Source: Pneumocystis sp. 'macacae' (Eukaryota; Ascomycota; Pneumocystomycetes; Pneumocystales; Pneumocystaceae). Taken from it: a stretch of 64,000 bases of DNA. Of this stretch, positions 45,770-57,070 are shown one piece after another; within the stretch, counting starts at the first letter, position 1; the number at the start of each line of letters is the position of its first letter. A program made the translations under genes and the position numbers. The stretch lies in assembly GCA_018127085.1 (NCBI GenBank), contig CM030730.1:89501-153500 (forward strand), in the 5' to 3' direction. The notes under the pieces are model-generated. The model had not been told where the DNA came from, searched no databases, and worked only from the letters and a program-made list of their open reading frames with translations.

Positions 45770-48700
45770 ATGTTGATTCCGCAAAGTAAGCCTGAGAATG
45801 TTTTAAGAGTATGTATAAATAAAATTATTCTTAACTATAAAACTAATGTGATTGTTTTTTATAGCGTGCTGAGGGTTTGAATAGGAAAAAACATTGAAAA
45901 ATAACTAATCTATAAATAGAATTAATTGCAGTTGGCCAGAGCACGGCAGCTCTGCAGTCTCTTCATGAATTGATACTCTCTAGGTGCTCCCGTAATACTT
46001 CAGTATCATCTTTGAAACCAATTATGCTGCGTTTTGTTGCATTGTGTGTAGATTTAAGAAAAGGAAAAATGGCGAAAGAAGCACTCTACCAGTACAAAAA
46101 CATTGCTCAAAACACATCAGTTGGGACAATAGAGGTGTGTGGTTAAAAATAAGATTATTTTAGGCTTTAAACGAGCTATATTGACTATTTTAGGTTGTTT
46201 TAAAAAAATTTATTGATCTTGTCGAAGAAAAGGTATCAGAAGCACAAGTTCATGCAGAGAAGCTTATTCTGGATGCAATCGATGACCTGGAAGCATCAGA
46301 AACCCCAGAGAATATTATTCTATCAACAGTTTCCGGAGATCAATCAAAAGATCGAACTGATCGTGCAGTTGTGACACCATGGCTTAAATTTCTCTGGGAA
46401 ACATATCGTACAGTACTTGAAATTTTAAAGAACAATGCAAGACTCGAACAAGCATATCAAAGCACAGTGAATCAAGCCTTCGATTTCTGTCTAAAATATT
46501 CAAGAAAAACAGAATTCCGTCGGCTTTGTGATATCCTTCGTACTCATCTTCAAAATGCTACTAAGTATTCTGGTCAGCAACATTCGATTAATTTTAATGA
46601 TCCAGAAACACTTCAGCGTCACCTAGATACACGTTTTTCCCAATTGAATGCAGCAGTAGAACTTGAACTTTGGCAAGAAGCATTTAGGTCTGTCGAGGAT
46701 ATTAATAACCTTTTAGCACTTTCAAAAAGACAACCTAAACTATTTGTAATGGCAAACTATTATGAGAAACTTGGAAAAATTTTTGCAGTTAGTGAAAATT
46801 ATCTGTTTCATGCAGTTATTTGGAATAAATACTATGGACTAATATCTTCTCAAAATAAAGGATCGGATGACAAGGAGCTTGAACGAGTGGCATCTTTGGT
46901 TCTTTTATCTGCATTGGCAATCCCAGTTGTTAGTGTAGCAAAATCAAAAGGAAGTATTATGGAAATAGACGATACAAAAATTCGCAACACAAAGCTTGCA
47001 GCATTATTGTCGCTTTCTAAGCTTCCTACAAGAAATAGTCTTTTAAAAGAAGCAGTAAGTCATATGTATTTCAGAATAAATGACTTATATATTTAGCTCG
47101 GAAAAAACATATTAGTTCATGTAAAAAAGGAAATCAAAGAATTATGCAATATACTAGAAGTAGAATTTCATCCTTTAAGTATCTGTCAAAAGGTTGAGCC
47201 TTTAATTAAAGTAATATCTCAAGATCCAGATATGATACAATATATCAAACCTCTTCAACACGTTATACTTACTCGTTTGTTTCAGCAATTATCTCAAGTA
47301 TACGAAACGATTAAACTGGATTTCATCCTTGGTCTTCTCAATTTTTCAGAGCCATTCCATATTGACTCAATTTATATTGAAAAATTTATTATGAATGCAT
47401 CTAAAAAAGGAGAACTGTCTATTCGAATCGATCATTCATCTAATTCACTAATTTTTGAGACAAATATTTTTACATCTCATCATACTATAACAGATAGCAA
47501 TGTTCGACTTCAATCTACACCATCCGAGTTAATACGCTCTCAATTATCACGTATAGGAAAATGTCTACTTACTACAATTTGCATTACAGATAAATCATTT
47601 CTTCAGGAACTGGAAGATCAAAAGAATATTGCAAACGGGCGTGCAGCTAATGGTATTGAAAAGGAACAAAAAGATACACTAGCTCGAAGAGCCATTATTG
47701 AACATCGAAAAGAAGTTGCTGAAAACATGATGATTTATAAAGAAAAAGAAGCGGCAACCAAAAGAGCACAGAAACTGCAGCAAGAACAGGAAGCAGAACA
47801 AAGACGTGTTGCGGAAGAAGCGAAAAAGAGAGAAGCAGAACGTATTAAAAAAGAAACAGATGCTATTCGTGCAGAAGAAGCTAGAAAATTAGCCGATGAA
47901 CTTAAGGCCAAAGGTGCTCTAAAAGTAAATGTCGATGGATTAGAAGGACTAGATACATCTAAGTTAAGAGCTATACAACTAGAGCAACTTGAAAAGGAAA
48001 CCCGTGATCTTAATGAAAAATTACGTGTTACTTCTAAACGAATTGATCATCTTGAAAGAGCATATAGAAAAGAAGAATTTCCTCTCCTTAAACAGAAGGC
48101 TATTGAACAGCTTGCCTCAGATAAAATATTTTATGAGAAAGCAAGAAAATTGCAACTTGAAGCATCTCGTATAAAACATGATCATATGGTTGCACTCAAA
48201 CATCGTTTCCAGAGACTCTATCCAGACTATGTGATTTACCGTGATACCTTTCTAGATAAATGCAAAAAGGAATTTGATGAACATTCCAGGATTGCCAATG
48301 AAGCTTTAGAAAAAGCCAAAGAAGAAAGACGGATTGCTTATCGACTTAAGAAGGAGAAAGAAGAAAGACAGAGATTAGAAGAAGAGGAGAAAAGAAGAAA
48401 AGAAGAAGAAGAGAGGGAAAAAATCAAGCAAAAAGAACTTAAACTCAAAGCTATCGAGGAGGAAAATAGAGCTAGAAAAGAAGAAGAGTTAAGGTAATTT
48501 CACTTTTTTAAAAAAATGCATTAAAAGCGTCTAGAAAACTCGATCAAATGGCAGAAAAACAGAAACAAAAAGAACTTGAAGTAGAAAAAAAACTTCAACA
48601 GAAGAAAGAAGAATTGAAGTCACTCGACCATAGTTATGATCGATGGATGAAGAAAGACCGATTACCCTCATCAGATCCATCCGGAGAAGAAAAATGGAGG

Positions 48701-48889
48701 CCTGGAAAGGGTTCCTGGAGACTTCGTGTTTCCGAACGGCAAGAATTAGCCGACTCTGATTCCTCAACTAACGAAACAAAATCCGATATACATTCAAAAC
48801 CCACATCAGCTAGGTCATCCACCATCGACACTCCCTCCTCCGGAATATACAAGCCTCCTGCTGCAAGAAAAGAAAACTCTCGCTGGTAA
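45770..48889 (+). CDS. RPG1: translation initiation factor eIF3 subunit a
   Basis: This is the largest eIF3 scaffold subunit (Rpg1/Tif32), binding the 40S subunit. The start [13 protein letters not shown] at 45770 splices twice into [18 protein letters not shown], then [78 protein letters not shown] and [20 protein letters not shown], followed by the PCI domain. The C-terminal third is a long charged Lys/Glu helix ([20 protein letters not shown] and on), as expected. The last exon is Ser/Pro-rich and ends ENSRW. G+C rises toward the 3' end, at the approach to the GC island. Confidence 0.96.
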
Positions 48890-49335
48890 TGCCTTCTATT
48901 TATTTCTACGTATTTATTCTTCACAATAACACTACATAATTACACCATATATACATCGCAACAACTATACATCATAATAACTTGTAACTTATATACCTGT
49001 AACCAATATATTCGTTTCCTTCAGTCCACATGTTTACACATAATACATCATGTCTATTGTTTACTTTTATAAAATATTATCTATTAATTTTTACCCCATC
49101 GTACAAATCACCTACGGGATAACAAAGAACGAAGGATTAACACACAAAACAACTTTGAAACTAAGACAAAGGAAAGCAGCCAAAGGGCTGTTCAAACATG
49201 CATGTACAGGAAAAAAAGGCAAAACTACCGGTAAAACCATGTATCTACAGATGCGTATAAGACCAAATGCACAAGGTTTGCTATCAACACGTCTTACTTT
49301 ATTAACATACACTACAGAGCGGAAACAGAACTTCT
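48890..49335. other. transition zone into the GC-rich island
   Basis: This is the 3' flank of eIF3a. It starts AT-rich with many ACA/ATAC steps and becomes CA/TG-rich. An open frame at 49050-49418 (+) is basic and without family resemblance; it could include an upstream exon of the next ORF or be chance. No other feature was seen. Confidence 0.4.
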
Positions 49336-50919
49336 ATGTCGTTATGTACACAGACCACAGCCTGTCTGGAAAAAACAGCGCATACACTCCGCTCCAACAC
49401 ACATTTATCTACCTTTAAGACCCATAAGCCGAGTTCTGATGCGCATACACAGACTCCAACGTGTGCATCGTCTCTTGAGATACATAGGCCACACTCTTCC
49501 GTCCACACTGTCGATGCATTGCAGGACTCACAAATGCATCCACAAAGCCTTTCGACACATGTACACCGTAAAAATATATGTTCCCTTCACAATGAGGCAC
49601 ATGTAGCCCAAGAAGTCATGCATACACTCAGCACTTCAACACATATACTCGGCTCTTCGGCAGACTATCTGGAGCACCAGCTAAACCAGCTTGCACGTGC
49701 TCGGCAGGACGAAGAGCATGGCGTTTCTACAGCTAAAATCCCAGCATCTACTGTATCTACCCAGTCGCTGTTGACAATGCTGCTTGCATCGCCACAGAGG
49801 ACAGGATTCTCAGAGTCTGCTGGCGTCGATCTTCTCTCAGACCACGGATCGACAAGTGGGCATTCGACACCGACTCCGCCACTACAGCTTCACTTTACAT
49901 CTCGGCCGACTGTTAAATTTGCAGCGCCTCCGTTGGCTCGGGCGAATGCACATGAGTTGACACACGAGCTGTTGCCGATTCTGCAGCCACCATGCTTCCA
50001 ACAGGCACTCCAGCAGGGGCTTCACACAGATTCATCCACAGAGCGGCCTCAGCACCATGTCCGCTTCCAAGCAGGCGCTGCTGGGACCGATGACGCACCG
50101 GCAGCAAAAATACTCGGCGGGGGGGCTGAGACTGGATTCTTTCTGGATCGCCTAAACCATTCGACAGACACACCAGCCAAACCAGCAACCAAGATCTTGC
50201 TGGATCACGTGCTCCCAAAGGAGAAGATGAGTCTTATTGTGCAGGACGAGGACGAGTTTGATGACCCAGATACACAAGAGGACTCTGACGACCCGGGCGA
50301 CGGCATAGACATGCCAAGGCCCCCGCAGCATCCACGGGGAATGCGGATGCCCCTGTCCACCCAGAAAGGCACAAGGTATGCATGCAGGGGTCTTTCTGGC
50401 CTGGCTCCAGAGTCGGCATCGTACCAAAGCATCGTTGCAGCCTCATATGGCTCGCTGCACAGACACTCTGCACTGTCGACCCTGTCGACCGGCAGCGCCG
50501 ACGCAGACACCGGATCCTTTCCCGAGCCCCTGTCCACAAAGGCCAGCCTCCTCGACGACACGGATCTTGTTCTTGGCAACCTCGACGAAGACCAGCTCGC
50601 CCTGGCAGCATCGCATCTGCATGATCTGCATGTCTCCGCCCCCCAGAGAACACACCCCATCAGCCCTGCCCTTTCATGCGCCGACACAGACGGCTCCTGC
50701 TCTCTCCTGCACAGACCCTCTCCACAGCCCTGCACAGAGACCCCGTCCGTCCTCACTGCAGCCCCTCCCACAAAACACTCTTCCCCAACCTACCCCGTCC
50801 CGCCCCAGACGCCCACTCCCGCATCCACCTGTCCCGCTGCACCCTCCATGCCATGGCAACTCCGCCATCCCCCCGGCAACTCCCTGCACAATGGTAAGCA
50901 CCCCCTTCCGCACCGCTAA
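49336..50919 (+). CDS. uncharacterised 527-aa ORF, Ser/Thr/His/Pro-rich with acidic patch
   Basis: I do not recognise the product. It opens at an ATG (MSLCTQTTACLEKTAHTLRS). Its length is improbable by chance at its 5' end, where G+C is still moderate. Protein-like segments are STQSLLTMLLASPQRTGFSE, RPTVKFAAPPLARANAHELT, KILLDHVLPKEKMSLIVQDE, DEFDDPDTQEDSDDPGDG and LGNLDEDQLALAASHLHDLH. The overall pattern suggests a disordered regulatory protein. The first 100 codons are rich in ACA/CAC. The last part (after about 50690) is low-complexity Pro/Ser. As drawn, the stop codon lies inside intron 1 of ATG44 and the frame overlaps the ATG44 start by 29 nt, so the true 3' end is probably earlier (an intron I could not place). 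Confidence 0.5.
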   Translation: MSLCTQTTACLEKTAHTLRSNTHLSTFKTHKPSSDAHTQTPTCASSLEIHRPHSSVHTVDALQDSQMHPQSLSTHVHRKNICSLHNEAHVAQEVMHTLSTSTHILGSSADYLEHQLNQLARARQDEEHGVSTAKIPASTVSTQSLLTMLLASPQRTGFSESAGVDLLSDHGSTSGHSTPTPPLQLHFTSRPTVKFAAPPLARANAHELTHELLPILQPPCFQQALQQGLHTDSSTERPQHHVRFQAGAAGTDDAPAAKILGGGAETGFFLDRLNHSTDTPAKPATKILLDHVLPKEKMSLIVQDEDEFDDPDTQEDSDDPGDGIDMPRPPQHPRGMRMPLSTQKGTRYACRGLSGLAPESASYQSIVAASYGSLHRHSALSTLSTGSADADTGSFPEPLSTKASLLDDTDLVLGNLDEDQLALAASHLHDLHVSAPQRTHPISPALSCADTDGSCSLLHRPSPQPCTETPSVLTAAPPTKHSSPTYPVPPQTPTPASTCPAAPSMPWQLRHPPGNSLHNGKHPLPHR

Positions 50920-51186
50920 CCCACAGTCGCTCGGAAGAATCATCCACCTCTCCCTCGACCTGCTCCTCCTCTCCTCCGTCCTTGCAGGCATCCGCCGGTC
51001 CACCGGCCTCACGTACACACGTACACACCCCTCTCCACGCCCCCTAACCTCTCCAGCCCCTCCTCCAGCCTGCTCGGCTCCGACGCCCGCGCCCTCCTCG
51101 ACACCTATCTGCACATCGGCGAATGGGCCGTCGACCACTGTGTCTCCTGGATGGCCACAAGCAAGTACTTTGAGCGCAGAAGATAG
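50891..51186 (+). CDS. ATG44: mitofissin Atg44 (DUF1748 family)
   Basis: Atg44 is a small mitochondrial intermembrane-space protein that drives membrane fission during mitophagy. Coding exon 1 is only the ATG (50891-50893). A 33-nt intron follows (50894-50926, GTAAGC, CGCTAAC branch, CACAG). Exon 2 gives SLGRIIHLSLDLLLLSSVLA and GIRRSTGLT, a second intron is 51013-51056 (GTACAC, CCCTAAC branch, TCCAG), and exon 3 gives LLDTYLHIGEWAVDHCVSWM and ATSKYFERRR. The total is 72 residues, close to the 73 of fission yeast. The LAGIRRSTGLTP and GEW...SKYFERR blocks are diagnostic of the family. The gene sits fully inside the GC-rich island. Splitting into tiny exons hides it from ORF scans. Confidence 0.93.
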
Positions 51187-51653
51187 CTGCTCCAATACAC
51201 CCCCGCACAGCCGCCCCAAAGTGCACCCCCGTGCCCGCCCCCACATGGCCGGCAGACACAGAGCTGCTGCCCGCCTCGCTCTTGTCCACAGCGGGCTTGG
51301 CGCCGCGCCGCTTGCCCCCGACGTCCTTGCACTCGCCGCCTGGATCGGCGCAGACTCCAGCGGCGGCCGCATGGGCGGCCGGTGCGTTCCAGCCTCTCTG
51401 TCGCGCTGACAAGACAGCAAGTTCTGGCGCATCCATCTCCCGCGGATCCAGTTCCACAACCCACACCTGCCGATTGCTGTCCACCGTGCCGACCACGGCG
51501 GCCGCCCCGTCCTCCTTGTCCACCGAGGTATGCTGTCCAGCCCTGCACGCTTACCGCCAGCCACAGGGACAACGTCCATCGACATGCACGGCCGGCATGC
51601 CGACGACATCTGCCGCGCACTGCTTGCGCATGCGCGCGCATAGCAGCGCACTG
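51187..51653. other. unresolved 467 bp between ATG44 and GET2, possible small minus-strand gene
   Basis: This stretch lies between the stop codons of two convergent genes. The minus strand has a protein-like segment (DKEDGAAAVVGTVDSNRQVW, VVELDPREMDAPELAVLSAR, about 51400-51530) that looks more natural than the other frames. A donor-like GTAAGC precedes it, but the nearest acceptor would make a 22-nt intron, shorter than any other here. I could not build a complete gene or assign a family. A perfect 18-nt purine/pyrimidine alternation (TGCGCATGCGCGCGCATA) lies at 51625-51642. Confidence 0.35.
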
Positions 51654-52157
51654 CTATGCATCGCTCCCCGTGTTCCACCACGCAAGCACCCCCGCGGCAA
51701 AGACCACCACCGCTGTATCCTGCACCACCCGCCTTGCCAGCAGTCTGCCGCCGCGCGCAGCACCCGTCTGTGCAGCACTCCACACACACAGCACTGCGTC
51801 TCCAAGCACCACCCACCAGAAGACCGGCCGCCCCTGTGCTGCACGGTCGCGCACAGAGCCAGCAAAGCCTGCATGCGCAAACACAAGCGCAGCAACCACC
51901 GCGCCCATCCACACTGCATGCACCGCGCCCACCCATGCACACGCACGCTGCACCGGCGCGCAGGCCGGCGCTGCTGCGCGCGGCTGCTCAGGCAGGTCTG
52001 CGCGCACTGCACGCGGCACACGGCACACCGGCACAGACGCCCCGCCCGACGACAGCTGCATGATGCGCGCAAGCCGCTCCGAGCCCTGTCCAAGGATCCG
52101 GTCCTGCCGCGCCCTGCGCAGCCGCGCACGCTCCGCCGCCGACTGTGTATCGGCCAT
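51654..52157 (-). CDS. GET2: GET complex subunit Get2-like (tail-anchored protein receptor)
   Basis: Get2 is the ER membrane receptor that captures Get3 carrying tail-anchored proteins. The protein has 167 residues, starting MADTQSAAERARLRRARQDR. The basic cluster near the N-terminus is the Get3-binding motif, followed by GSERLARIMQLSSGG, as in fungal Get2. Three hydrophobic segments follow at about residues 74-97, 111-128 and 145-161, and the tail is short (WNTGSDA). It is intronless here. Composition is strongly Ala/Arg/Gly/Val-biased, as expected from the GC-rich DNA, and differs from genes outside. Start codons of this gene and the RCCD1-like gene are only 41 bp apart. Family call rests on the N-terminal motif plus topology. 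Confidence 0.78.
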   Translation of the reverse strand: MADTQSAAERARLRRARQDRILGQGSERLARIMQLSSGGASVPVCRVPRAVRADLPEQPRAAAPACAPVQRACAWVGAVHAVWMGAVVAALVFAHAGFAGSVRDRAAQGRPVFWWVVLGDAVLCVWSAAQTGAARGGRLLARRVVQDTAVVVFAAGVLAWWNTGSDA

Positions 52158-52198
52158 CGCGGAACTGGCCCCGCTGCCCTGCAAAAAACCCGCCGCCC

Positions 52199-53215
52199 AT
52201 GGAGCTCTGGGCCGCCGGATCAAACCTCTTCGGCCAGCTGCGCCCACACCGCGACGCACATCTGCTTGCTCCCGCACTCGTCCTCCGCTCCCACAGATCT
52301 GCCGCCGTCCTCTGGATCGGGTGGTCTGAGATAGTGTGTATGCCGCTGCTCCCCGCGCTCTGACACACAGACTGCATAGACGGCACTGCACATGCGGCTG
52401 GACTCAGAGGCACCGTCTGTCTCGGACAGATCTCTGCTGCCTTCGGCACCCTCGAGCTCTCAGGCACTGTCGACTGCACAGGGACGCTGCGCGACCTCGC
52501 CGGAAACGCCGTGCACCAGCACATCCAGCTTGTTGCCGAGGCCGGCAACGGGCTGGTTGCCGCCACCGACACCAGCGGGACGCTGCTCGCTGCGCCCGAC
52601 AAGCACCAGCGCCTGCGCCCCGCTGCACAGCCGCTGCGTGCCGGTGCCCGCATGCTGCAGCTGTGTGCAGGCGCTGCACACTTTGCAGCACTGTCGTCAG
52701 ACGGCACAGTCTACACATGGGGCAGCAATCTGCATGGACAGCTCGGGAGGGAGGTCGATGGCGAGGCAGACAGTGTGCCGGGAGCAGTCGATGCACTGGA
52801 GGGCCTGCGGATCAGGCGGATCAGAGCAAATGGATGGGTGACAGGCGCGCTGAGTGCAGACGGCGACCTGTATATGTGTGGATGGCTGCGGCTGGAGACA
52901 GGGGAGACAATGGGATGGGAGGGCGGGTTTGTGCTGGTAGACTTTGGGGCGGAGGTGTGTGTAGAGGACTTTGGGGTGGGGTCGGGACATGTGGCAGTGC
53001 TGACAACAGAGGGCATCTACACAGTGGGGCGAAGAGGGGCAAACTGTCTGGAGCACGGGACGGGGGAGTGGACAAAGATCAGGGCGTTTGCAGGAGGACG
53101 GGTGGTGGGGGTCGAGTGTGGGCAGTGGAACACAGTGTTTATAGTGGAGAGTGGTGGGGAGGGGGGTGGAGGAGACAGACAGCATCGGCAGCAGCAGTGC
53201 GGGCGACAGACTTGA
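52199..53215 (+). CDS. RCC1-repeat protein of the RCCD1 type
   Basis: This is a beta-propeller RCC1-repeat protein. The start MELWAAGSNLFGQLRPHRDA is at 52199. A 33-nt intron (52338-52370, GTATGC, CTGAC, CACAG) leads into YCIDGTAHAAGLRGTVCLGQ. Repeats include MLQLCAGAAHFAALSSDGTV, YTWGSNLHGQLGREVDGEAD, ANGWVTGALSADGDLYMCGW and FGVGSGHVAVLTTEGIYTVG. The end VVGVECGQWNTVFIVE matches the C-terminal block of RCCD1 (a histone demethylase partner in animals). Its role in fungi is not clear to me. The frame then runs on through a Gly/Gln-rich tail (53150-53215), antisense to the last exon of the ARMH3-like gene. ATS1 is a weaker alternative. Confidence 0.83.
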
Positions 53216-55435
53216 GGAAGACACGGTGGGCGGACTCTCTGAAGCGGAGAACAGGGTCGGGGGGCGGGAGAGAGGAGAGATCGAGGAGGGGAAGGGCGTT
53301 GGAGATGGCGGCGAGGACGGCATCGGGAGAGGATGGGTGGGGGAGGGTCTGGGAGAGGAGGGTCTGGTAGTGGTTGATGAGGAGGAGGATTGTTGCCGAG
53401 GAGGGGGAGTGGAGGGAGTCTGGGGGAGTGAGGAGGGCGGGAGGGGGGGCGGGGGTACAGGAGTGTATGAGTTTGCGGAGGAGATCGGCGTTCTGGACGA
53501 GCTTGTATATGAGGTCGAGGAGGGAGGCGAGGTGGAGGAGGAAGTTTTCGCCGCGGACGGCACAGAAGGAGAGGAGGGCGAGGAGGAGGGAGAGGAGGTG
53601 GCAGATGCGGGGGAGGGGCTTGAGGAGGGCGGCGTTTGTGAGGAGGAACATTGCAAGGCGGATGAGGAGCCTCCAGAGGGGGGGCCAGTGGTATTCGAGG
53701 CGTATGCGTCTTGTGTCGAGGGAGGCGGCGATGTTTAGGAGGATCTGTATGTGGAGGCTGGGGGGTGAGTGGGGGGAGCAGGGGAGGGGGGTTACATGTA
53801 TTTCTCGGTGTCGAGGTTCCTGCTGAGGTTGTGTTCGAGGGCCATGGCGAGGGAGTCGAGGATGGCGAGTATGGGGGGGCGGGGGTGAGTGGCGGGGGGG
53901 AGGAGGGAGTGTTTTTGGCGGCAGAGAAGGACGAGGGAGCAGGAGTTGCAGAGGGCGGAGAAGCAGGCGTCGTCGTCGACGAGGATGTGGATGATGAGGA
54001 GTGCAAGGCGGGCATAGTGCTGGGCCCTGGGGGAGAGGGAGTGGTGGAGGAGGAGGTGTGAGGTGAGGGAGAGGAAGAGGGAGAAGGGGGTTTCTTTGGA
54101 TTAGTTGGGGGGCGGGGGGAGTGGGGGACGAACCGGTCGAGGGGGAGTCGGGGGAGGAGCCGACGGTGATGAATGTGTGGCAGAAGGCCTTGTTGAGGCT
54201 TACAAAGTCGTAGATGGGGAGGAGTATGGCGGCGGCGGGGCCGGGACTGTGGGTTAGAGAGGAGAGGTGGGGGTGGGAGGGATACAGTGGGAAGACGGCG
54301 TTTTGGGGGGAGCAGGAGGAGTCAGGGAGAGGCCTATGGTGGTCTGGGGGGGAGAAGATGTTGAGATAGGCAAGTATGTTGGTGAGCCGCCAAGGGTTGT
54401 CGGGGGCGTTGCCATGGAAAGAGGAGTACTGGTTTCTGCAATTGGAGCAGACAGCAGAGATGATGTTGATGATGCGCAGCATAGTGCAGTTGTCGACAAA
54501 GTCGCTTAGGCGTGTCTGGTAGAGGTTGCGGGACTCGAATTTCTTGTTGTTGGCGAGGACTCCAAGAAAAAGAAAAGCTAGAAAGGCGGTTGGAAGAGTG
54601 TTAGGATCGGCAATATACTGGAGATAGTTATTCTTTTTGGCCGTGTGTGTGGAAGCAGACCTTGATGATTGAGGGGAAGAAGTCTTTGTAGTGGAAATAT
54701 GAGACGATGTTTGAATTGAAGCCCTGGCATGCAATGCATAGGCATAGTCTTAGGGCTTTTGTTGCAACTGTAGCTGTTGGGGGAGTCAGCCATGTTTGTG
54801 TATGGGGGTTCAGGGGGCATACTCCTGGGTTCTTTTTGGATAAGGGCTTCCAGCGACGTAACAAAGTCCTAACTATGATGAATAAAAAACAGAAAGCCCG
54901 AGGATTTCACCATGAAGACAGTGTCGATGTTGTCGAGACTAGAGATAATGAAAACAGTGTCGGATGTAAAATTGTTGTATTTCTTCTGAAATATGGAGCG
55001 CAGGAACACTTCCAGCGTCTAGTCCTCGTTATTGCTTTGTATTTTTAATTTATTTCAACTACATCCAATGCATTTTCTAGTCTCAGCGGATCCGCTTTTT
55101 TGATGATAGACACACCCTCCATAAACAGTCCGCGTGTATTGTTCTACGGAATATAGCCATGAAGCCAGCAAAAACAGAAATAGCAAACCTGTAGAAAAAG
55201 AAGCTGGTCTCCTGTCAATTCGTCAAGTATGGACGCTAGTTCTTGCAGATCAGGCTCAAGAAGGTACATATCCAGGAAAAAACGGCGATCCAACGCCTCT
55301 CCTTTCTCTTTCTATGCATTTGATTAGCTTTTTTTCAATCCGTTATCTAAGAAAATTTACACGAAATAGTCGCTCATATTGAGCCACAATTTTTGGCTTA
55401 AAATTACGCTCAAAACCTTTTTCCTTGTTCCCCAT
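53139..55435 (-). CDS. ARMH3-like armadillo-helical protein (DUF1741)
   Basis: The family (human ARMH3/C10orf76) binds GBF1 and PI4KB at the Golgi in animals. The start MGNKEKGFERNFKPKIVAQY is at 55435. Rebuilt exons give FFLDMYLLEPDLQELASILD, GLFMEGVSIIKKADPLRLEN, ALD|TLEVFLRSIFQKKYNN, DFVTSLEALIQKEPR, NSNIVSYFHYKDFFPSIIK and YIADPNTLPTAFLAFLFLG. In the GC-rich half come PFSLFLSLTSHLLLHHSLSP, ARLALLIIHILVDDDACFSA, YILHIQILLNIAASLDTRRI and RLEYHWPPLWRLLIRLAMFL. GC-rich introns keep GT and AG ends. Two alternative open frames in the region are composition artefacts. The gene goes from AT-rich (5') to GC-rich (3') without a break and overlaps the RCCD1-like gene by 77 coding nt. Confidence 0.88.
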
Positions 55436-55658
55436 ATATATGGCTCAAAATACATTCAATAGACTGCCTTTTCCTTCATTTTCTTCTAAATTACAGACTT
55501 TCTCCTGCATTTTTATCATATAGTTGGTCGTTACTATAGAAACTCTAAGTAATTAGATCAGTTCAAAACAACGCGTCTGACAAATAAGATAAATGTAATG
55601 AAAATTTAAAAGTAAGTATCTAAGAAGGCCCAGAGAGAATTAACCGCTGTAAGGTTGA

Positions 55659-57070
55659 ATGGTTCTGAAAGTTAGGCTTTGTGATGAGAGTCCTAAATCG
55701 CGTTTGGTAGTCTCACATATTACGAATATTGTTGAAAAATCAAAAAAGTAAAGTTTTTTTATTTTATTAAAAAATCTGAAAAATATTTAACAGATCAATC
55801 ATCATTACAAGTGCAGGGATAGCGTCTACTGCAGGAATTTCAGTATATTCCCTTTTATTTGCTTTTTCTTGATAATTTTTAAAGGACTTTCATTCTACAG
55901 ATGGACTCTATAAGTTTATAGAAAAGGTTAGGAAGAAGCATGTTTTTATGGAAAAATCTGACGATCTTAAAGCAATGTCCGAGTGTTATAATGAATGGGG
56001 ACGATTTGTTTAATTCATTAGTGTTTCAGGACCATGTTTCTTCTTCGATCTTTTATTCATTCATGGCAGAATTACAAGCATTAATTCTTTCTGCTAGATC
56101 AAAAAATACAGACAAATTTGTACAAATACTCAAAGATAGATCGTCACTTTTACGATGCTATACTCAAGAAATTGATGATTTAAAGTCTCAGGAAAAACTA
56201 TGTATAGAAACAATGAATATAAAGAAAAATAATGTCTACAGGCTTCATGAAGACGTAAATAAGTCAAGATGTATGATTTGTGGTATAAATTGTGATTATA
56301 CAGTAGAGCAAATTGAACTTTTAAAAAACAACATAGAATCAAGCAACCTTGAATGTACAAATAAAAATATGAAAACAAAAAATAAAAAGGAAAATCCTAG
56401 AGTACAAAATTCACATCCAAATACTGTATTTTATGATAAAACACACCCAATTAGCGACTTTTTAACTCAGGTAACCGCTTCTAATATTAAAAAACGACCC
56501 GATTTATTATTGATTATTGGAATATCTCTTAGAATAATAGCTATTAAATCTCTAGTTAAAGATATTTCAAAGATTGTTCATTCAAATGGAGGAAATGTTA
56601 TTTTTATTAACCATACAGAACCTTCTTATAATGAATGGAAAAATATTATTGATTGGTATGTTCAAGCCGATTGTGACGAATGGGTCGAAAACCTCAAAAG
56701 AAGAAAATCATTTATGTTTATAAACCACTCTGAGCCTCCTGTAATGTCGCCTAAAAAAAAAAATCCAAATTCAAAAAAACATCCAAGTAGTATTTAATTT
56801 TAATATATATGTATATTAAGTATCTTACAATGATTAGGAAAACATAAAAAAAATATACAAACTGTTTCTAACTTTTCAGATTCAGATTCTCCAATCCAAA
56901 AAAAAACTTATTTTGATTATGAACTAAAAGATTCTCAGAAAAAAATAATATCAAGTGCATATAGAGTTAATTTCTCTATTCCTCCACCTAAAATGGCACC
57001 TTTAGTCAAAGACAAAACTCATCTAGTTAATGGAAATTCAAAACAAAAAATTAAATCGCAATACAAATAA
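55659..57070 (+). CDS. Hst3/Hst4-like sirtuin with altered catalytic residues
   Basis: The fold order is that of a class I fungal sirtuin (Hst3/Hst4, histone H3 K56 deacetylases). After MVLKVRLCDESPKSRLVVS comes SIIITSAGIASTAGIS|DFHS (canonical GAGIS...GIPDFRS), GLYKFIEK|QCPSVIMNGDDLF, LVFQDHVSSSIFYSFMAELQ, CYTQEIDDL (canonical TQNID), VYRLHEDV (canonical HG), the first zinc pair CMIC, then ECTNKN where CxxC is expected, RPDLLLIIGISL (canonical GTSL) and VIFINHTEPSYNEW. The catalytic His is kept, but NAD-contacting Gly, Arg and Asn positions and the second zinc pair have changed. All introns splice with GT-AG and the frame is open, so it is not simply a pseudogene. A Lys/Ser-rich tail ends KIKSQYK. 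Confidence 0.78.

Follow-up and report, generated by a model that had tools for sequence, protein, structure and literature searches.

We analysed a window of 64,000 nucleotides from Pneumocystis sp. 'macacae' (P. macacae; GenBank assembly GCA_018127085.1, contig CM030730.1, positions 89,501 to 153,500 of the forward strand). It contains a GC-rich island of about 5 kb whose + strand is rich in C left of the centre and rich in G right of it, and many such islands occur in the genome. The features of the locus are collected in Table 1.

Table 1. Features of the GC-rich island and its surroundings (positions within the window)
Feature	Position	Strand	Remarks
GC-rich island	49557..54545		301-bp smoothed G+C >0.48; mean G+C 0.63
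Island, left half	49557..52050		+ strand C-rich, GC skew -0.26
Island, right half	52051..54545		+ strand G-rich, GC skew +0.37
Mitofissin (ATG44), two exons	~50891-51010 and ~51046-51186	+	PF08520, E 2.4e-10 and 9.4e-9; boundaries approximate
GET2-like open reading frame	51654..52157	-	PF08690, sub-threshold in Pfam (E 0.22 and 0.11)
RCC1-repeat gene	52199..53215	+	PF13540, E 2e-12; PF00415, E 5.7e-9; splicing tentative
ARMH3, spans right island edge	53142..55435	-	ARMH3_C, E 5.4e-24; stop codon excluded, exon ends from alignments
SIR2-family open reading frame, flank	55922..56794	+	G+C 0.29, ordinary

A preliminary description had reported a GC-rich block made of native core genes in AT-rich DNA. 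ATG44 is confirmed by PF08520 matches in two exons, and alignments together with the ARMH3_C match show that ARMH3 crosses the right boundary of the island. The gene described as RCCD1-like encodes an RCC1-repeat protein (PF13540), the name RCCD1 being that description's own label, and a GET2-like gene is suggested by PF08690 matches below threshold. Domain matches and Pneumocystis orthologues of genes in the islands agree with a native origin and lead us to reject foreign DNA. Three introns were placed approximately in ARMH3, with a G+C content of 0.67 and 0.64 and, for the third at the island edge, 0.43. The G+C rise ends within a gene. Searches for tRNAs and Rfam families in the window found none.

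The G+C content of the window rises from a background of 0.29 to about 0.65 across roughly 49.6-54.5 kb in a single block with values of 0.65-0.70, and with a peak of 0.68 in 1-kb windows. Outside positions 48,001-56,000, 56 one-kb windows had a mean of 0.289 (standard deviation 0.041, maximum 0.372). The edges are gradual, as described before: in 200-bp steps G+C on the left climbs from 0.33 (49.0 kb) to 0.66 (50.8 kb), and on the right it drops from 0.60 (54.2 kb) to 0.32 (55.4 kb). A recount of positions 51961-52020 gave exactly the 46/60 G+C reported. What the preliminary description overlooked is the flip of GC skew within the island and the existence of many similar islands. The two halves in Table 1 were divided at the GC midpoint (~52,051), chosen without fitting to the skew; the cumulative skew has its minimum at ~52,715.

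The genome searched comprised 8.27 Mb in 19 contigs; the published P. macacae assembly is given as 8.2 Mb in 16 scaffolds (PMC7940399). Apart from contig-end repeats and poly-G runs, stretches of at least 16 G/C bases were located at 30 or more internal places. Runs of at least 12 were found 297 times genome-wide, versus 0 in 155,511 bases of flank. The search for runs of at least 18 was complete, whereas the numbers of places for at least 16 and at least 12 are lower bounds, except those for at least 12 on C1-C3. On these three contigs (1.80 Mb) the runs of at least 12 fall into 13 internal clusters (3, 4 and 6), 10 of which were read; all 10 are islands. Since 13 internal clusters lie on 1.80 Mb, we estimate by extrapolation about 60 islands in the genome; islands were located by G/C runs, so that weaker ones escape. 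The island in the window is accordingly no unique anomaly.

We read 24 islands: the one in the window, 19 others from places with runs of at least 16, and four of seven further clusters of runs of at least 12 on C1-C3. The first 20 had a mean width of 4.2 kb (standard deviation 0.65 kb; some 5-kb fetches may shorten it) and a mean G+C of 0.62. Pfam six-frame scans covered seven of the 23 islands beyond that of the window, and the resulting domain-based gene models are partial. Some islands contain ribosomal protein genes. One holds an orotidine 5'-phosphate decarboxylase gene (L024:1984-2616), the protein of which is, by eye, very rich in alanine, glycine and arginine. The searches also returned pure-G or pure-C runs of at least 16 (C6:520751, C10:17583, C10:306591, C12:166683) and an identical GC-rich 18-20-mer at C3:305, C4:553175, C8:480293, C10:472864, C13:6509, C15:374637 and C16:10592. 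The latter lies at most about 12 kb from contig ends and is probably a subtelomeric repeat, separate from the internal islands.

The + strand was C-rich left and G-rich right of the GC midpoint in 19/20 islands (18/20 before the fetches of C7 and C9 were completed). The C7 island had a skew of 0.00 in its left and +0.20 in its right half, its flip lying 1.3 kb (1308 bp) left of the midpoint; the right half of the C14 island reached only +0.06. The midpoints are accurate to within several hundred bases, and flip and midpoint differed by up to 665 bp, C7 apart. In a block-shuffle test, 0 of 2000 shuffles matched the observed pattern for 19 of the 20 islands. The four islands fetched afterwards all showed the flip from C to G in 500-bp tables; one of them was truncated on the left by the border of the fetched sequence, two extended as far as the right border and one was narrow (about 2-2.5 kb). 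A C-left/G-right pattern is its own reverse complement; its sign can therefore not stem from contig orientation, and by chance half of the islands should show the opposite order. The skew profile is mirror-symmetric and ends together with the G+C rise ~2.5-3 kb from the centre. At 3-6 kb the folded mean skew was -0.04 to +0.06 (22-24 half-islands), single flanks being more variable (-0.23 to +0.27).

We compared the sign of the skew with the orientation of genes identified by Pfam matches or alignment in eight islands. Overlapping families of one stretch, second stretches lacking coordinates and three weak matches outside islands were left out beforehand; six of the remaining 41 segments lay outside islands and were dropped, leaving 35, several of which share one gene. 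The sign followed the side of the island and not the gene strand in 32/35 segments. The + strand skew was negative in 6/6 left segments on the + strand and 8/8 on the - strand, and positive in 12/14 right segments on the + strand and 6/7 on the - strand. Three segments deviate: a PPPDE piece (0.00) and two that lie at most 250 bp from the midpoint (-0.11, -0.02). The two ATG44 exons, + genes in a left half that were not part of this count, agree with the side rule (+ strand skew -0.45 and -0.25).

Four-fold degenerate sites reveal which base is gained. For each half we define the tail strand as the one that runs 5' to 3' towards the island centre (+ on the left, - on the right). In five flank open reading frames these sites carry A 0.30, C 0.06, G 0.11 and T 0.53 on the coding strand. 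At least 300 bp from the centre, the composition was C 0.72, G 0.10, A 0.08 and T 0.11 for genes coded on the tail strand and C 0.64, G 0.13, A 0.07 and T 0.17 for genes coded opposite to it (n 873 and 915). Beyond 800 bp tail-strand C was 0.73-0.74 and G 0.06-0.07 (n 684 and 501); between 300 and 800 bp the values were C 0.56 and G 0.21, and below 300 bp C 0.39 and G 0.30. Such a trend is expected of a break zone that is not a point, or of midpoint error. Away from the centre, four-fold sites thus gain only C on the tail strand. Among tail-strand dinucleotides, examined as a possible polymerase signature, TT and TA are low and TG is high, which does not decide between the explanations.

The compositional change reaches the proteins. 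ARMH3 orthologues were found in P. jirovecii, P. oryctolagi, P. wakefieldiae, P. carinii and P. murina. In the island columns of the alignment the amino acids G, A, R and P (GARP) make up 0.12-0.16 and F, Y, M, I, N and K (FYMINK) 0.34-0.39 of these five sister sequences, versus 0.24 and 0.16 in P. macacae. Identity between P. macacae and P. jirovecii was 0.74 across the 126 columns of the AT-rich 5' part, 0.60 across the 144 of the edge part and 0.57 across the 231 of the island part, the corresponding values for P. jirovecii and P. oryctolagi being 0.68, 0.78 and 0.79. The unusual divergence of P. macacae ARMH3 is thus confined to the edge and island parts and is not seen in the AT-rich part. 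An RNA methyltransferase encoded in the C6 island showed GARP 0.40 and FYMINK 0.13 versus 0.24-0.30 and 0.22-0.31 in six orthologues; this comparison covers seven of the 120 homologues listed, among which four are named as Pneumocystis including P. macacae, one is from Neolecta and none is named P. jirovecii. The protein from the C6 island matches PMAC_002756 with 100% identity across 77% of the query. Its orthologue P0019 (243 amino acids) is intermediate, with GARP 0.30 versus 0.24-0.25 in the other five, and perhaps comes from a near relative whose island is weaker. Judged from these proteins, the drift looks specific to P. macacae at both loci. A homologue search with the RCC1 gene gave 11 matches, none named Pneumocystis, and this gene was excluded from the species comparison.

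We hold it somewhat better than an even bet that the islands are fixed sites of recurrent DNA breaks at which repair of the resected tails favours C. The breaks would most likely be Spo11-type meiotic double-strand breaks; as expected of meiotic hotspots, the genome encodes a Spo11/TP6A_N domain, in two adjoining pieces on C12 (E 4.0e-13 and 3.2e-4). Breaks would recur within about 1 kb at the island centre, and 5'-to-3' resection would leave 3' tails to either side, formed by the + strand on the left and by the - strand on the right. The predicted tail strands are both the C-rich ones. The tails would pair with the homologue, their repair would tend to leave C on the old tail strand along ~2 kb to each side, and over evolutionary time A and T would be replaced by C on this strand, also at protein-changing sites and in either gene orientation. 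The heteroduplex would be polar, with the old tail opposite the donor-copied strand, and its repair donor-directed. C:C mismatches are poorly repaired. If mismatches containing the tail C (C:C, C:A, C:T) were repaired worse than those containing the donor G (G:G, T:G, A:G), C on the tail would be both kept through poor repair and gained through good repair opposite a donor G. A base-excision version of the bias is also possible, since three loci in the genome encode HhH-GPD glycosylase domains and two encode UDG-family domains. What we observe is the composition, its polarity, its independence of gene strand, its recurrence and the lineage-specific divergence at two loci; the breaks, their meiotic nature, the resection and the repair rule are inferred from these. 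We put forward more tentatively, as a little short of an even chance, a strand-polar 'C drive' in which the tail strand is pushed to C and hardly to G at fixed meiotic break sites.

Several points weigh against breaks with C-favouring tail repair. We know of no case in which gene conversion yields a gain of C only, and the mismatch-repair version leans on presumed repair preferences. The two compared loci are ordinary in the proteins of the sister species, and the hotspots must therefore be lineage-specific. When all sites are counted, tail-strand G rises as well, from 0.15 to 0.20 at 1-1.5 kb and 0.29 at the centre. Four-fold sites are weaker in right-hand + genes (C 0.57, G 0.18) and in the C15 island (C 0.57, G 0.25), and C7 did not pass the block-shuffle test (p 0.85), on a fetch that lacked the left end of the island. 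Finally, a mutational origin in repair synthesis fits the composition nearly as well. Here recurrent breaks would be followed by error-prone fill-in that places G opposite the tail bases and turns the tail to C with no conversion bias. This process is asymmetric by nature and fits polarity and range, but A and T fall together, so that G would have to be misinserted opposite both T and A. An exon-by-exon genome search found no Y-family polymerase domain (IMS, PF00817), though intron-split genes may escape it; this negative weakens error-prone synthesis, and the family has possibly been lost from the genome. We regard this origin as rather unlikely.

The remaining explanations account for part of the pattern. 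The preliminary description had favoured GC-biased gene conversion at a hotspot; its idea of a long-lived local process around a fixed spot is in our view right, and the rise of synonymous G+C over the scale of conversion tracts and the weak-to-strong drift that altered two proteins are both as such conversion would have it. Standard conversion bias is symmetric since both alleles of a site act as recipient. It predicts that C and G rise together, and the plain version is contradicted as sole cause because four-fold sites beyond 800 bp gain C without G; that it acts here and nothing more is improbable, even though Cryptococcus neoformans has GC-rich recombination hotspots at the MAT flanks and a GC peak inside MAT (PMC3390403). 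Replication origins, where bidirectional forks leave G-rich leading strands on either side of a fixed start, would give the right sign, G-rich rightwards. Forks, however, go further than the skew, which averages about zero at 3-6 kb, and strand asymmetry alone would not lift G+C from 0.29 to 0.65; we consider origins unlikely, if less so than symmetric conversion alone. Skew caused by transcription from divergent promoters, or selection on the codons of highly expressed genes, might be suspected from the ribosomal protein genes in some islands, but the segment count largely contradicts both, and with two of three approximate ARMH3 introns GC-rich and a G+C rise that stops inside a gene, we give either very little credence. 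The sharp contrast in base composition might also suggest foreign DNA or an assembly artefact, and the authors of a chromatin immunoprecipitation (ChIP) study of P. macacae left open whether multiple Mis12 peaks are artefacts (PMC10327204). We find this the hardest to credit: assembly error is unlikely because a conserved fungal gene runs through the edge and one polar pattern recurs in all 24 islands read. The preliminary description had named normal sister species combined with unspanned edges, or assembly error at many loci, as evidence against its view; ARMH3 of five species is normal at the protein level, so at most half of this combination applies. Recurrent breaks with resection fit better than the other explanations considered, because the pattern starts from a zone of ~1 kb, extends ~2 kb outward on both sides, is strand-directional and is blind to genes.

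The way in which gene conversion acquires its preference for G and C, whether through mismatch repair or base excision repair and on which of the strands, is to our knowledge an open question. The islands tell the two strands apart: C is made on one and G on the other, and more than 800 bp from the centre four-fold sites do not gain the complementary base. Should the islands mark break sites, the geography of recombination could be read from sequence in a fungus difficult to grow in culture; if the proposed drive towards C is true, the genome sequence would directly show where breaks occur, how far resection reaches and which polarity the strands have, and the bias would expose a donor-directed, mismatch-specific repair rule that is absent from symmetric models of gene conversion. 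The ARMH3 protein and the RNA methyltransferase have been pulled to an unusual composition, apparently by molecular drive.

Literature searches on Pneumocystis gene conversion and GC-richness and on GC skew at hotspots gave no description of such islands beyond one sentence in a preprint, which reports that each P. macacae chromosome has four to six Mis12 peaks; these tend to GC-rich regions and are left unexplained there (PMC10327204). The peaks, which may or may not correspond to the islands, share with them this tendency and the species, and our clusters of runs of at least 12 number 3, 4 and 6 on C1, C2 and C3. The hotspots at MAT in C. neoformans (PMC3390403) are likewise local fungal GC peaks tied to gene conversion. 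They lie at or within MAT, and strand polarity is unmentioned in the passages concerned; the P. macacae islands, in contrast, are many, run through genes and each carry a C/G flip. In a tract model of GC-biased gene conversion (PMC3020949) composition also varies with distance from the double-strand break site, on the scale of a conversion tract, but the model treats GC content, while the islands gain mainly C on one strand and reach a plateau of ~0.65. Runaway GC evolution in gerbils (PMC7403616) resembles our case in its lineage-specific, protein-altering clusters of weak-to-strong substitutions; these were described in 1-Mb windows, and 'GC skew' there means an excess of GC-ward change and not the strand skew that marks the P. 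macacae islands.

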